Source: Ichthyophthirius multifiliis
Lineage: Eukaryota > Ciliophora > Oligohymenophorea > Hymenostomatida
DNA length: 56,733 bases
Direction: 5' to 3'
Assembly: GCF_000220395.1 (NCBI RefSeq)
Contig: NW_004087701.1
Coordinates: 1-56,733, forward strand
Shown here: positions 7,538 to 31,607 of the stretch, in pieces
Layout of the letters: each line of letters opens with the position of its first letter
How positions within the stretch are numbered: position 1 is the first letter of the stretch
The notes under the pieces: generated by a model
Databases searched by the model: none
What the model was told of the DNA's origin: nothing
The model's input: the letters and a program-made list of their open reading frames with translations, nothing else
Program-made: the position numbers and the translations under genes

Positions 7538-7676
7538 AAAAGTTTATTTTTAAAAAAATAATTACTTAAATATAAATATAAATGACAATAAAAAAAAAAA
7601 AACTTTATAAATATAAATACATAGATATATAATAATAAAAAAATAAATTAATATTTAGTTAATAATTTATATAAGT

Positions 7677-7749
7677 GGGTGTGTAGCTCAATTGGCAGAG
7701 CGCTTGATTTGCATTCAAGAGGCAGGGGGATCGATGCCCCCCTCATCCA
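7677..7749 (+). tRNA. tRNA-Ala (anticodon UGC)
   Basis: All cloverleaf arms can be drawn. The acceptor GGGTGTG pairs with CTCATCC and discriminator A. The D stem is GCTC/GAGC. The anticodon stem CTTGA/TCAAG carries loop TTTGCAT, giving anticodon TGC. The T stem is GGGGG/CCCCC with loop ATCGATG. The acceptor has G3:U70, the classic identity determinant of alanyl-tRNA synthetase. Pair 6-67 is U:U, a mismatch. There is no intron. It is by far the most G/C-rich patch in the window. Confidence 0.95.
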
Positions 7750-7753
7750 TATA

Positions 7754-7860: not shown

Positions 7861-9498
7861 ATGGACTAATATTAAAAAAAAATACCTATAAGCGATTGGA
7901 TAGGAAAAACAGTATGTTAAAATTATAAAATAATACAAAAAATCGGATAAGGATCATTTGGTAGTATTTATAAAGCTTCTCGAAATCCTGAATCTTAAAA
8001 TAAACATTTAAATATAATAGGAGATGATTTATACGCAATAAAAATAGAAGAAGATCTAAAAAATGATATATTAGTAAAAGAAGCTCGAATACTAAATGAA
8101 TTAAATGGATAATATGGATTCCCAAGAATGCATTATTTTATAAAAACAAAAGATGCAAGTAAAATGGTTATATCATTATTAGATAAATCAATAGAGATTT
8201 TATTTAATATATGTAATAAAAAGTTCAAATTAAAAACAATATTGATGATAGCTGATTAAATGATAACAAGAATTCAAGATTTACATAAAAAAATTATATT
8301 CATAGAGACATAAAGCCTGATAATTTCATGATTGGAAGAAAAGAAGAAAAAAACTTAATTTTTTTGATTGATTTTGGACTTGCTAAAAATTTTCTTAAAA
8401 AAGATGGAACACATATCCCTTTTTAAAATAATGTTGGATTGATTGGAACTACCAGATATACTTCAATTTAATCTCATTTAGGTAATGAATAATCTAGAAA
8501 AGATGATTTAGAATCTTTAGGTTATTGCTTAATATATTTATTTAATGGAACATTGCCTTGGATAGACTTGAAATGTAAAAATAAATAAGAAAGATAATAA
8601 ATGGTACTTTAAATTAAATAAAAAATATAAATAACAGAATTATGTAAAGGTATGCCTTTTGAATTCAATAAATATATGATTTATGTAAAAAATCTTTCCT
8701 TTACTGAAGAGCCAAATTATAATTTTATTAAAAATCTATTTAGAGTACTTTTCTTAGAATTAAAATATGAATATGACGATAAATTCGATTGGATTATTCA
8801 GGATTGTATATACTTATTTTTAACTTTATTTTTTATTTTTTTGTAAAAAAAATTATAAAATAAATAAAAAATAGAATTAAATAATAATGAAATATAATAA
8901 AACTTTTTAAGTATATAATCACTATAAAACTAATAATCAAATATCCCTTAAAATACATCGAGTTCATATTCAAATAAAATAAATATTTTAGATAAAAATA
9001 TATCAAGTGAAGATAAGCAATGTATGCATAATGTAATTTTTTTCATTTTTTATTTTAGTTGGAAATTACAGGTAAGTTTGTTAGAAGAAAGGTTAAAAAC
9101 TAAACTTAAGAATAAAAAAAAGTTGAAGAATTATTTATTAAAGACGATATGAGATATTTTGTTGATAGGTAATTAGATATAAATAGCAGTTAAAAATCTA
9201 AAATAAATAGTTAAAATAATAATTTATAAGAAGAAATTAATAAAATTGATAATTATGAAAAATAAATTATAAATTTTTAATTATAAAAAAATAATTTAAA
9301 TTTATAGTTTGAAGAAAATATTATGAAAAATGATGATGAAAATATTATGTAAAATGATGAAGAAGAAAAAAAAATAGATGAAAATATGAAATAGTTAACA
9401 AATAATTATATTAAAATGTATTTAAAATTTTATATATATATATATATATCTATATATATATATTTATTATTTTTAGAAAAAGATTTTAACAATTTTGA
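7861..9498 (+). CDS. Casein kinase 1 family Ser/Thr kinase (frame broken at an A run)
   Basis: The kinase domain starts almost at the N-terminus. Visible are the glycine loop [12 protein letters not shown], the ATP lysine in YAIKIEED, the catalytic loop [14 protein letters not shown] in LIDFGLAKN, and the CK1-specific GTTRYTS with [19 protein letters not shown]1 enzymes lack the APE motif and carry this signature instead. The C-terminal tail beyond about 8875 is Asn/Gln/acid rich, without known domains. Introns at 8806-8874, about 9028-9060 and near 9420-9475 are inferred. TGA is at 9496-9498. The frame breaks at the A7 run 8287-8293, between QDLH and the catalytic loop; A8 would restore it, so I regard this as a sequence error in an active gene. 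Its position next to the tRNA is probably incidental. Confidence 0.9.
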
Positions 9499-10577: not shown

Positions 10578-10599
10578 TCGTATAACTTCGTATAATGTA
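10578..10599 (+). other. loxP-type sequencing-linker remnant
   Basis: Bases 10581-10599 contain a complete 13-bp loxP arm and the first five bases of the loxP spacer (ATGTA). Together with the four preceding bases they match, from memory, the beginning of the loxP circularisation linker used in 454 Titanium paired-end libraries. The right half of the linker is absent. Chance is very unlikely, given four or more G/C bases in an otherwise A/T desert. I infer an untrimmed adaptor, not a genomic recombination site. Confidence 0.7.
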
Positions 10600-11012: not shown

Positions 11013-12552
11013 TCATCTATTATTTTTATTATCACCATTAATAGCAATTTCATTATTGGTAGTATTATTATAAACAAAAGAGGAATCTTCTATAAAGATC
11101 CTTAAATTATTTTTTTCCTAGTAAATGTTTTTTTGTTCACATTTTTTTATTTTTCTTGATTTAATTAAATTCTGATTTATAATTATCATCTATAATATTT
11201 ACTTATTAATTTTAAGTACTTTTATCATCTTCCTTATCTTTATTATTAATTTAAAAATTATGTTTTTATGTTTCTGATTCTTAAATATTTATTAGTTCTG
11301 GCTCTTCAACAAGAGCATTTTTATCATTTTTTCTCTTCTTAATAATAAAAATTAAATACCAAAAAGCAATTATTAAAATAACGAAAGCTGTCACAATAAC
11401 AAAATAATAAAATATATGCATATTATTATTATTATTTAATTTAAAATTATTTTCATTTTAAATAATCTCTGAAACTAATTAAAATTCAACGTTTTCTTAC
11501 GCGTAAATAATAAACTCTAAATTTTAATAATTTTAAGGTAATTTAACTTAAAACTCTTACTAATTTTCTATTTAAAAAATATTTTCTTTGTTCGAATTAA
11601 ATTAATGAATTATAATAACTTTAAAATCTTTTACATTATTCTTTAAAATTAGATTATAATGGCAAATCTAATTATTTATTTCTTTCCTTGGATTCTAAAA
11701 TTATATTATTTCGAAACCTTATAAACCTATTTTTCCAAAAACACTTTTAGTTAAAGGAAAAACATTATTTTTTTCAAAAATAGAGGATTTAAATGCTATC
11801 TAGAATCTGTTTTCTTACGAATTAAAAATATTAATTTACAAGAAAGAAGGAGTTTTTTCCAAATAAAAATAAAACTGAAATATAGAATTATTTTAAAGCA
11901 CTATTTATTGATAAGATTAAATATCTTCTTAATTATTTGGCTTTATTTATATTTATATTTCTTTATTGTTTTTTAATTGTAGACTATTTTAATTATTTAA
12001 CATATAAAATTCTAATAAATATTTCTAGCTTATTTGCAAAGGCTTTATTTTTTATACTTAAAATTCAATTTTTTCACCTTTCAATATTTATTATTCTTCA
12101 AAATTTATTGCTTTTTTAGATTTATCATTAACTTATATTTCTATTTGGAGATTTTGTTCACCTTCTTAAATTAATATGTAATAATTAAGAGTTTCAGAAA
12201 GGTATATTGTACATATTTCTAAAAGGGAAAATAAGCAAATTTATTAATATTAGCTATATTAATAGTCAAATTAATTAATTTCCAAATGTTTTACAAGTTA
12301 TAATGCAGACTCATAATTATTAAATATATGCATTTAAGGATAATTATGATAATCTTATATATCCTTTAATTTAATTTAAATTTCTTTAGTCTTATTAATT
12401 TCTGAGAGACTAAATTAATACATATTTTACTTAAGCTAATTATTTATAATTATCTAAGTAGGCTTATTTATGGGAATGTCTTTAAATAATTTTTATTATT
12501 GCGTTTTTATATTTATTATTATTAAAAAAAAAAAAAAAAATTTATATGTCAT
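11013..12552 (-). CDS. Type I single-pass membrane protein, unknown function
   Basis: Not recognised. From ATG 12552-12550 the protein begins MTYKFFFFFLIIINIKTQQQ, a clear signal peptide. About 400 residues of Gln/Asn-rich, apparently beta-rich ectodomain follow (for example IQEGEQNLQIEIQVND and GFEIIQFQNPRKE). A transmembrane span MHIFYYFVIVTAFVILIIAF then leads into a basic stop-transfer KKRK and an acidic cytosolic tail. It has no evident introns. The frame shifts at a T7 run (A7 on the coding strand, 11142-11148): one frame stops at 11137, while the other continues IFIEDSSFVYNNT to TGA at 11013. Six bases in the run would join them. It likely sits in the plasma or secretory membrane. The gene faces away from its plus-strand neighbour. 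Confidence 0.72.
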
Positions 12553-12896
12553 TTTTTTTTTTTTTATTGTTAGAATTATAGGCAATTATATTATATTTTA
12601 TTTTTTAAAATAATATATTGACTTCTTTTTTTAAAAAAATAAAATATTAAATTAAGTATATTTAAATATAAAAATATAAAAATATAAATTTTTAACTTAT
12701 CTTATTTTATTTTATTTAAAATAAATAACAAATATAAACTAATAAAATTTATTTTTATTATTTAAATAAATATCTAGAAATCAATTATATTTTATTTTTT
12801 AAAAAAAAATAATATAAATATAATTTAAATTTTATAATTTTTTATTATAAATATAGATAATTTCTTTAAATTTTATTTCAAAAAATATTATAAAAA
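12553..12896. other. Divergent intergenic region
   Basis: About 340 bp of A/T-rich sequence between two divergent start codons. I see no gene in it. Promoters for both genes probably lie here. Confidence 0.5.
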
Positions 12897-16474: not shown

Positions 16475-19123
16475 ATTTATTTTTTCTTTTAAAATAGATA
16501 ACCTTAATGATGCCATATTATGTTTTGAATAGGCTATAAAACATAATAATTCTCGAAAAGCTGTAACAAAAGCATTATATTAAATAGCTAAAATAAAAAT
16601 AGAATTACGTGATTTTTATTAAGCATTCCACACAATAACCAGAGCAGAATTTTTAGACGTAGATAAAAAGGCCTTAGAAAAATTTAGAATATTTACAGAC
16701 GGAGTAACTTTTTTAATGAAACGTAAATATTAAGAGGGAATAGAAAATTTATCTAAATTAGTAAAAGGATATAATCTGGGTGATTTTTTGAAACCTTTAG
16801 TGTATACTTATCGTTCTTACGGATATTTTTGTTTAGGAAAACATCAAAAAGCACTCCTAGATTTACAAACTGTAGAAAATAAACTCGAGAAATGTTCGAA
16901 TTATAACAAATATATATGCGAGGGAATTTTAAGTGCCCAAAACAATTAATTCGAACAAGCCATGAATTTTTTTAATAAGGCCAACAAACTTTTCTCTCAA
17001 AAAATGGAACCTTTCTTCTATAAAGCAATGACTTTAGTAAGATTTACTAATAAACTAATCCCCAAAACCGACGAATAAAAGCGAATTTAATACAAATAAA
17101 ACGCTTTAAAAAACCTCGATAAAGGAATAGAGTTAAATGATCAAAATGCCAATATATATTTTCATAGAGGAGTCTTACGTTTCTCCTTAAACTAAATAAA
17201 CGACAGTATATAAGACTTTGATAAAGCAATAGAAAAATCAGAAGACAATAATGCTAAACACTACTATGCTCGAGGACTAGCTTATGCTTGCATAAACTGT
17301 AAAAAATAAGCCATAAACGATCTTTCAATAGCCATAAATCTCGACTAAAATTACTCAAATGCATATTTAAATCGTGCGAAATGCTTTCACTTAATTGGTG
17401 ATAGAAATTCTGCTTTTGTAGATTTATAAAAATTTGTAAATATAAAACCTTAAGACCCTGATATTCATTTATGGGCAGGTAATCTACTATTTAACATAGG
17501 AGCATATGAGGATGCAATAAAAGCTTATTCTCATGTAAATAATATAAGTAAAAATTGCGATATACTTCTTCTAAGGGCAAAATGCTATATGGTATTTAAA
17601 GAACTAAATAGTGCATTAGAAGATATGGAGAAAATAATAGAATTAAATTAGGAAAATTTAGATATTCGATTCGATTAAGTTTGCCTTATGTCGCTTAAAA
17701 TTGCCTCTTAAGGAAGTCAAGAAATCGAATAAATTTCTTTTTTTGAATAGGCACTTGAGAAAATTTAATAAAGCAAATAATTCGAAAAAAGGTCAGGAGC
17801 TTTTTTTAAAAGATCAGATAGTTTATTCTTTAAAGGGTTCTATAAATTCCATTTAAGAGACTATGAAGGAGCTTTAAGAAAGTTTAAAAAAAGTTTCGAA
17901 TTTAAAAATTAAGAATGTAAACTTAAAGAATAAAATCTTTGCGAATTACTTGAAGATGATGATGAAGCAGTACATATTTCAGAACTAGAAGAATATGAAT
18001 TTTAGAATAAAACTTATAATATTTATGAGTATTATTATAATTGTGCCAGTTGTCTTATTATGATGGAAAAATATCAAGAAGCATTCAAATATTTAATATA
18101 ATTATAAGAAATATTACCAGAGGAAGAAAAAGTCAAATGTTTGGAAGGACTTTTATTGGTTTTAAATGATGAAATTGAAAATAAAAATACAAATAATATT
18201 TGTAATTTTATTTTTGAATATATATATTTATTAATAAATATATATTAATATATATATATATATAGATATATATACTATTATATATATATATATATATATA
18301 TATTTATTTATTATATATATATATTTTTAGAATTAAATAACTTTTAGCTATTTCCTGTTAAAAATAGACTTTGCTCAATCTTCCCAAGTTTAAAAGCTCC
18401 TTTTAAATCGCATAAAGATTTTGTAATTTTATTATATTATATAATAGTTATTTATATTTTTTAAAAATTTTCTTTATAAGTAAGTTACTTTATATTTTTG
18501 TTTACCAAAAGTTGAAGCACCATCTATGATTCCATTCTTTGATGAAAATTTACTATAATAATTATAGGTATTTTTTTTATATATATATATAATAATTTTG
18601 TAATATGTAATTTAAAAACATAACAATAAATAAAGCCTACTGTAGTAGAAAATAAGCCTGAAGCTCCCTGGATAAGGAAGACTTCAGAAGGAATAATATT
18701 CACAGATAATGTTTAACATTTTGAAGATTTAGATTTGAAAACAGAAACTAAAAGAGAATCAGGTAAATATTTTTTTATAATAATTAATTTTTTTATTTTT
18801 TTAAAATAGATGATAATTAATAGGAAGAAGTATAAAATAAAAATATTAATTAAAAAATTCATGCTTTTGATTATGATGAATTAATGTTTGATAACTCACA
18901 TTATTTATATAATGATTATAAAGATATAGGTATTTTTATTATTATTATTAAAATTATTTATAAAATACTCTATATTTATTAAAATTTTTAAAATAAAGAT
19001 TATTCTTATGATGGAGATGAAGGTAAAAACGATTAAGTTATTGAAAAAAATAAATTAAAAGATATTCTTAAATTAGATGAGGATATTGAAAAAAAATTAG
19101 CAAAATTAAATAGAAAAATATGA
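14762..19123 (+). CDS. Large tetratricopeptide-repeat (TPR) protein
   Basis: Scaffold-type protein of roughly 1,200 residues. A Ser/Gln/Asn-rich N-terminal region of about 230 residues precedes many TPR units from about 15580 to 18170. Clear units include KAIMQYPQYYDAYIYRGKL, KRFEKAIQDFDIAIHLNP, SAINLYTQALEKEE, KALLDLQTVENKLEKC, DSIQDFDKAIEKSEDNNAKH and QAINDLSIAINLDQNYSNAY, with the usual Ala/Gly/Tyr spacing and Pro at helix ends. The tail is acidic and ends LAKLNRKI at TGA 19121-19123. About nine introns are inferred, including a 40-nt one near 16301-16340 that could be mistaken for a frameshift, and two filled with TA repeats. TPR solenoids bind partner proteins. Such long ones are frequent in ciliary and trafficking complexes of ciliates, but no catalytic domain fixes the role. 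Confidence 0.86.
16412..16476. repeat. (TA)n tract inside a TPR-gene intron
   Basis: Near-perfect TA dinucleotide run within an intron of the large TPR gene. Confidence 0.8.
18249..18325. repeat. (TA)n tract inside a TPR-gene intron
   Basis: TA-rich run occupying most of the intron before the C-terminal exons of the TPR gene. Confidence 0.75.
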
Positions 19124-28466: not shown

Positions 28467-31400
28467 TCATTATTTATAAATATTTTCTAAATTGGCTTTA
28501 ACTTTATCACAAACATCTTTAGCTCCACCCAACAACATTTAAGCATTTTACTTATAGAAAAGTGGATTATCAATATCAGCATATCCAGTACCCATAGATC
28601 TTTTATTAATAATTACAGTTTTAGCTTTCCAAACTTCCAAAACAGGCATACCAGCAATAGGTGATTCTGGGTCTTCTACAGCACTCGAATTGACAATATC
28701 ATTAGCTCCGCAAACTAGAACAACATCAGTATTTTCGAAATCATGGTTAATTTCTTCCATTTCATGTACAATATCATATGGTACTCCTACTTCTGCTAAA
28801 AGTACATTAAGTTAACCAGGCATTCTTCCAGCAACAGGGTGAATAGCAAATCTAACTTTAACTCCATTAGAGATAAGTATTTTACAGATTTCATAAATAG
28901 GATATTATGCTTAAGCAACTGCCATACCATATCCAGGGACAATAATAACAGATTTTGATTAAGAAAGAAGTTCACTAACTGTATCGGCATTAGTTTCTTA
29001 ATGAACTTTCTTTTCTTAACTTTTCTATAATTAATCAGTCTTAGGTGCAACCCAAGTTCCAAAAATGACATTATAAAGCGATCTATTCATTGCCTTGCAC
29101 ATTATATAAGATAGAATAGCACCAGAACTTCCAATAAGAGAACCCACAATAGTCAACATAGGATTTCCAAGCATAAAACCTTCTGCACATAAAGCCCATC
29201 CTGAGTAAGAATTTAAAACAGTAATAGCAACAGGCATATCAGCTGATCCAATAGAATTAGTAATATTCCAACCTAAAGCAAAAGATGTAAAAGTAGCATT
29301 TAAAAGTGCCAAAAGACCTAAAGTAGGTGATTATGTGGCTAACATAGCAGTTAAACCAATTATATTTAACAAAGCTAAAGGCTTATTCAAATTATTTTTC
29401 ATAGGAAGATCAAAAGTAAACTTCATTCCTGAAAGTTTAATAAAGGCTGCAATAGATCCCGTAAAAGTAATTCCTCCAATAAAAGTACCAAAGTAAGCAG
29501 CTACGGTATGTAAAGTAGTAGGATTTAAATCCATCATAAAAGATGCTATAGATGTAGTTACAGCAGCCAAACCAACTAAAGCATGAAAAGCGGCAACTGT
29601 TTAAGGCAACTCAGTTACCTTTACTTATTATCCAATATATCTTCCAGCAACACCAGCAACTCCTAAAAGAGATAAAGCCTAAACAAGAACCGGGAAAGAG
29701 AAATTCATAGCCAATAAAGCAGTAACGACACCTGTAGAAACACCCATAATTCCCAAAGCATTTCCTACACGGGAAGTTTTTTATGATGCCAAACCTGAGA
29801 TTCCTCCAATACAACATAGACTTGAAGCTAAATATCCCATAGTATATACGGAAGGAATAGCCGCAAAATGGGCAGCTAATAAGCATCCAACACTTCCAAG
29901 GGTAGGGATTGAATACATATAATTATATTCTGCAGGATCTGTTTTTCTTTTAAACATATCAAGCATTCTCTTAGTAATAGTAAATCCACCTACAATATTA
30001 GTGGCAGATAAAAGAACAGCACTAGCCGCCAAAGCTTAAGCTACTGAATGTGGTACAAAACCTCCTCCTAATAAAAGAAGACCTCCAACAGCAGTTACAC
30101 CCGAAATAGCATTAGTAATAGACATCAAAGGTGTATGTAAAGCAGGCACAACTCCCCAAACAGACTAATAACCAGCAACAACAGCCAAAGAGAAAATAGT
30201 AGTCATAGTTAAAAATGCCGGATCAGGGCACAAGACTCCTAATCCTAATAAAGAAGATAACGAAAGAGTAGTATAAAGTGAATTTTTGAGAGTTTTCTAG
30301 TATAAATTAACTGGTTATTATTATTACTAAACAGGTTATTTTTCCATAGGTTTTTTCACCGCATCTAACATAGGAGGATTAGGATTAGGCCATAATAATT
30401 TGCCTTCATGTGTAACAATAGCCCCTCTAGTAATAGGATCTTCTAAATCAATATCAAAATTTTTATCTTTATCACTAAGATGTAAAAGAAACTTAGAAAT
30501 ATTATTACTATATAAACTTGAGGCTGATCCACTCATTCTACTAGGTAAATCAGTTAAACCAACAACTGTAACTCCATTATGTTTAATAACTTAATCTTTT
30601 TAAGTATATTCACAATTACCTCCATTTTCAGCTGCTAAATCAACAATTACACTTCCTGGTCTCATCGCTTCTACCATTTCTTTAGTAATTAAAGTTGGTG
30701 CTTTTTTTCCAGGAATTAATGCTGTAGTAATTATTATATCTACTTCTTTTGCTTAATCCATGAAAAGTTTCATTTCAGCCGCAATAAATTCAGGAGACAT
30801 TTCCTTAGCATAACCACCTGTCCCTTCTCCTGATTCCTTTAATTTTATTTCCAAAAATTCAGCACCTAACGACTTTACTTATTCCTTAACAGCCTCTCTA
30901 GTATCAAAAGCTCTTACTATAGCTCCTAAGCTTCTAGCAGTAGCAATTGCTGATAAACCAGCTACTCCTCCTCCTATAACAAGTACTTTTGCAGGTGGAA
31001 GTTTTCCCGCAGCAGTCATTTATCCTGTAAAAAATCGCCCGAAATGAGTGGCGGCTTCAATAACAGCTTTATATCCGGCTATATTGGCCATAGAAGATAA
31101 GGCATCAAAAGTTTAAGCTTTGGTCATTCTAGGAACTTAATCCATGGCGAGACACGTAATTTTTTTCTAGTTCAATTTCTCAATTAAGTCTTTATTTTAA
31201 GTAGGATGAAGGAAAGATACTAACTTAGAGTTAGGCTTCATTAAATCTATTTCGTGTTTTTTTAATTCTGGATGTATTTATGGAGGTCTCACTTTCAAAA
31301 CAATATCTGATTTGTAAACTTCTTCTGTAGAAACTAACTTTGCTCCAATTTTCTCATACACATCATCAGGAACACTAGCTTATTGACCAGCAGATTTCTC

Positions 31401-31607
31401 TATATTTATTTACTTGTAACCGGCTTTTAATAATCTTTCGACTGCTTCAGGTACTATTGAAACTCTCTTTTCGTTAGGATATACTTCTTTTGGAACTCCT
31501 ATGGAGAGGTTTTATAAACTCTAAGATGAAAAATCTTATTGATGAATTTTGAATAATAATCTTTATTTTTAACATAGAGATATTTTGCGTAAACAATTAG
31601 ATATCAT
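28467..31607 (-). CDS. NNT: Mitochondrial NAD(P) transhydrogenase, single polypeptide
   Basis: Proton-translocating transhydrogenase of the inner mitochondrial membrane: NADH + NADP+ to NAD+ + NADPH, driven by the proton gradient. Starting at ATG 31607, the first 40 residues ([16 protein letters not shown]) are basic and lack acids until Asp, as in a targeting peptide. Domain I begins [20 protein letters not shown] and holds the NAD-binding [18 protein letters not shown]. Domain II is about 400 residues of membrane helices, such as [16 protein letters not shown]. Domain III contains the NADP-binding [13 protein letters not shown] and [18 protein letters not shown], then [15 protein letters not shown]. 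3,141 nt equals 1,047 codons with no intron or frameshift, close to metazoan NNT length. The alpha-beta fused order matches animal and apicomplexan enzymes. Stop TGA 28469-28467. Confidence 0.96.

Follow-up and report, generated by a model that had tools for sequence, protein, structure and literature searches.

The 22 bases at positions 10578..10599 (plus strand) of the stretch of Ichthyophthirius multifiliis DNA analysed here (contig NW_004087701.1, 56,733 nucleotides; hereafter the window) are almost certainly a leftover of the linker used in 454 paired-end sequencing, i.e. a familiar type of assembly artefact without biological function. The likeness begins at the outer end of the 42-base 454 Titanium linker, extends without a mismatch over linker bases 1-22 (22/22) and breaks off at linker base 23. 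Read from left to right on the plus strand, the remnant comprises four linker-only bases that lie outside loxP and are not found beside the loxP site of phage P1 (10578..10581), one exact 13-base loxP arm (10582..10594) and the first five of the eight spacer bases (10595..10599). The second arm is missing, and the term 'half-site', used in an earlier note made from the letters alone, is therefore apt. That note had described a full loxP arm with part of the spacer, arranged as in the 454 Titanium circularisation linker; its coordinates and letters are confirmed, and the order agrees in all 22 bases with the linker given in the available text of PMC5199103, where the same pair of 42-base sequences is printed as mate-pair adapters. 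The arm occurs once in exact form in the window, and each of the five other places listed carries two mismatches.

The surroundings of the remnant are indeed the 'A/T desert' described there, since the GC content amounts to 27% within the 22 bases against 9.0% and 9.5% in the 200-base flanks. The remnant lies in an A/T-rich gap between the end of a protein kinase frame (9.15 kb) and the 3' end of a minus-strand frame (11.14 kb). The former (8256..9149, plus strand; Pfam Pkinase), which is open in the ciliate code, is the upstream neighbour and is untouched by the remnant; the latter (11140..12780, minus strand), a long open frame in the same code but without a Pfam match, is convergent and lies downstream. 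No recognised gene overlaps positions 10578..10599.

Base composition and genetic code of the window are those of the ciliate. Its GC content is 16.7%, and the available text of PMC3341644 gives 15.9% for I. multifiliis, which it calls the lowest value yet reported among fully sequenced eukaryotes. The genes in the window are open only if TAA and TAG stand for glutamine, and the Pfam matches were obtained in code 6. A Plasmodium-like or prokaryotic origin, as the A/T content and the broken frames might suggest, was rejected because this reading of TAA and TAG opens the frames. For example, the gene for NAD(P) transhydrogenase (28476-31499, minus strand) can be read only in this way, and a piece of it found relatives at most 77% identical among the 120 listed from a protein database. 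A tRNA-Ala (TGC) at 7676-7750 was found by both ARAGORN and Rfam. Elsewhere in the assembly, the I. multifiliis hsp90 primer pair of PMC10024447 matches exactly, once each and convergently, on contig C390 (88222-88446); the span of 225 bases compared with the product of 138 bases stated in the available text points to an intron. GGGGTT telomere repeats gave 380 and 467 matches and the reversed pattern 394 and 491; since reversal yields the same tandem repeat, these numbers were not taken as a test.

One alternative is a chance match in a genome rich in A and T. The loxP arm is itself A/T-rich, chance would yield 1-8 exact copies of the arm alone in 45 Mb, and the reversed arm pattern gives eight matches in the assembly. 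Under Markov models of order 0 to 4 built on the window, however, the complete 22-mer has a chance expectation of 4e-10 to 3e-8 in the window and of 3e-7 to 2.5e-5 in 45 Mb, and the linker end extends over 22-24 bases at four places besides that in the window. The 22-mer expectation set against the observed counts refutes the chance reading, whose probability we consider negligible, and the view of the earlier note that a native origin by chance is very unlikely is upheld.

The remnant is one of many in the assembly. Pattern searches over the whole assembly (44,957,332 bases in 937 contigs) recovered the 13-base outer prefix of the linker at 29 sites, 19 for one linker strand and 10 for the other, with 0.03-0.33 expected by chance for each and none for either reversed-pattern control. 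At these sites the exact linker run varies from 13 to 24 of the 42 bases; the whole exact 42-base linker was not found in the assembly. Likewise, the 18 bases of arm plus spacer occur at seven places for one linker strand and at two for the other (reversed controls 0 and 0). Exact loxP arms number 31 genome-wide, and 17 of them are exactly preceded by the four outer linker bases, 13 by those of one linker strand and four by those of the other. At a further scrap (L005), a 22-base linker end directly abuts eight bases matching part of the second arm, the intervening stretch being missing. Shorter prefixes do not extend the picture. Those of 11 bases gave 38 and 24 matches, which include the 19 and 10 of 13 bases; the 19 and 14 beyond that set compare with 9-24 and 11-24 expected by chance, and the reversed controls gave 41 and 39 at a higher chance expectation of their own (39-67). 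As the 11-base prefixes show no clear excess over chance, the existence of many additional, shorter scars is unsupported and we do not claim it.

The sequencing history offers a probable source for such scraps. According to the available text of PMC3253782, the Roche 454 paired-end kit is a Cre-loxP system in which a linker marks the junction. For the I. multifiliis genome, Celera Assembler 5.3 was run on 454 FLX Titanium and Sanger reads with an error rate of 8% (PMC3341644, available text, which lists the read sets SRX036996, SRX036983, SRX036682, SRX036681 and SRX036678). The available part of that paper speaks of 454 shotgun reads, names no 454 paired-end library and does not use the word 'linker'; as far as the available text of PMC2945939 goes, the 454 reads of the project had been subjected to linker detection and paired-end splitting. 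We infer that the present assembly is the one treated in these two papers, in which case linker-bearing 454 Titanium reads formed part of the project.

On this basis, 454 FLX Titanium sequencing of a circularised (paired-end) I. multifiliis library would have yielded a read that stopped within the linker and whose short linker tail may have escaped the linker finder of the assembler and then been retained as genome. That the longest exact run is 24 of 42 bases suggests that longer tails were recognised by the finder and short ones slipped through. At a presumably thinly covered spot the tail would have been written over a roughly equal number of native bases in the consensus, a replacement seen in the spacing at three other sites and presumed for the site in the window. 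The 8% assembly error rate given in the available text of PMC3341644 could have let the tailed read overlap its neighbours. Two observations count against the simplest form of this scheme. Of the 31 arms, five (L002, L007, L008, L013 and L025) possess at least three inner linker bases yet are short of one to four on the outer side, which a plain read-end tail would predict only together with a further error in the read or the consensus; the other observation is the composite scrap L005 described above. That the available part of PMC3341644 names no 454 paired-end library also speaks against the scheme. Among the remaining arms that have no outer bases, some may be chance matches, of which 1-8 are expected.

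What such a tail does to its surroundings can be gauged where it has landed in coding sequence. Protein searches were applied to five of the 29 prefix sites (L182, L183, L186, L187 and L190), a non-random choice of sites at which both flanks are apparently coding on one strand; a codon score of the flanks at all 29 sites was noisy and served only for this choice. The flanks of each scar were translated separately and each was compared with relatives, and four of the five sites proved informative. In the gene for V-ATPase subunit B (18-base scar, L190 1501-1518), the left flank follows chain 36qu_F to residue 356 and the right flank resumes at residue 363; the gap of six residues corresponds to 18 native bases, against 20 in the assembly. 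An ammonium transporter gene (19-base scar, L182 1501-1519) was compared with its L187 paralogue because its downstream piece has no Pfam match, and the alignment reaches residue 143 and begins again at residue 152, with 24 bases expected and 23 in the assembly. In the paralogue itself (13-base scar, L187 1501-1513), the match to the Pfam ammonium transporter family runs up to position 200 and again from 205, i.e. 12 bases are expected and 14 are present. These two paralogues are on separate contigs (C750 and C283), and each has its scar at a different point. In a Rab6-like GTPase gene (17-base scar, L183 1501-1517), the match to the Ras family breaks off at position 77 and continues from 82, and both flanks belong to the same GTPase family in the right order; an intron seems to lie beside the scar, and the site was left out of the spacing measurement. 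So was L186, where beta-propeller matches on both sides were all below the curated cut-offs.

The surplus over native length is thus +2 (L190), -1 (L182) and +2 (L187), whereas an insertion would give the full length of the scar. At these three sites, therefore, the linker replaces native bases and shifts the frame, and the flanks are correctly joined. About thirty linker scars in this assembly probably overwrote native bases in the same manner, those within genes shifting the frame, and some of the genes whose models look broken, split or absent would owe this to scars of the assembly. The frame shift was measured in V-ATPase subunit B and the two ammonium transporters and is likely in others.

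The same measurements bear on whether the linker fused segments that are not neighbours, which would make the linkage across 10.58 kb wrong. Reads from circularised libraries do carry two distant pieces of the genome on either side of the linker (PMC3253782, available text), and two of the 31 arms are terminal in their contigs (C32 and C774). Yet at L190, L182 and L187, and also at L183 where spacing was not measured, both flanks match one gene in the right order and on the right strand, and no exact whole linker was found in the assembly. At the site in the window, moreover, the flanks are similar in base composition, and neither has another, nearly identical copy among the 41 and 47 DNA matches listed, in a search that passes over very common words; the other matches are A/T-rich stretches of 68-85% identity. 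We consider a false join improbable. The earlier note had left the choice between an untrimmed adaptor and a false join: the adaptor stands, given the outer-end identity, the roughly thirty scraps and the linker processing described in the available text of PMC2945939, and the false join does not fit the flanks at L190, L182, L187 and L183. By analogy with those sites, the window's own scar probably replaced native bases and its join is probably sound. The caution of the earlier note over linkage at 10.58 kb goes further than the evidence, which comes from other sites, would justify, and the results suggest that there is no need to doubt linkage where such scars occur.

The significance of these scraps is one of data quality only, the remnant itself being biologically meaningless. 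Linker scraps in genes can make intact genes seem broken, and as the I. multifiliis genome serves for counts of gene loss, linker ends should be masked before broken genes are tallied. Overwriting in place with a change in length of one or two bases offers a signature by which scars can be found.

Finally, the remnant can be compared with loxP proper and with linkers in other deposited genomes. A native loxP-like half-site, left e.g. by a phage similar to P1 or by a Cre-type system, would account for the identity with phage P1 in one 13-base arm and five bases of the spacer. A loxP site, however, consists of two inverted 13-base arms and an 8-base spacer, and the remnant is without the second arm and three of the spacer bases. 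The four bases that precede the arm in P1 (X03453.1) are unlike those of the remnant, which are those of the commercial linker, and this difference in the neighbouring bases points to the linker and not to P1 as the origin. Sister copies, moreover, stop at variable positions of the linker and replace codons in V-ATPase and transporter genes. A native half-site is thus exceedingly unlikely.

The linker reading has ample parallels in the linker contamination of public bacterial and viral assemblies. The 22-mer of the remnant occurs in at least 120 stretches of genome_contigs, the 80 titles listed being bacteria, and in five stretches of viral_contigs. Whole or partial linkers are present in Gemmata sp. 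IIL30, Candidatus Paracaedibacter symbiosus PRA9 and Legionella tunisiensis LegM as well as in a Rickettsia MAG from Diachasma alloeum (all within L039-L158), and the affected deposited bacterial assemblies hold several linkers each. In Lactococcus phage Q33 (JX564242.1, about 17548-17581; L165 61-94), a whole loxP lies at the end of the portal protein gene and is adjoined by the outer bases of the Titanium linker (by visual count, 41 of the 42 bases of the linker); it looks like linker contamination of the deposited genome and not like a native loxP. In the 120 stretches of genome_contigs listed, the whole 42-base linker accounts for 101 of 149 occurrences, whereas at most 24 exact bases occur here: the 454 GS FLX Titanium linker with its loxP core is matched in 22 of 22 bases from its outer end and, in the window, ends after these 22.
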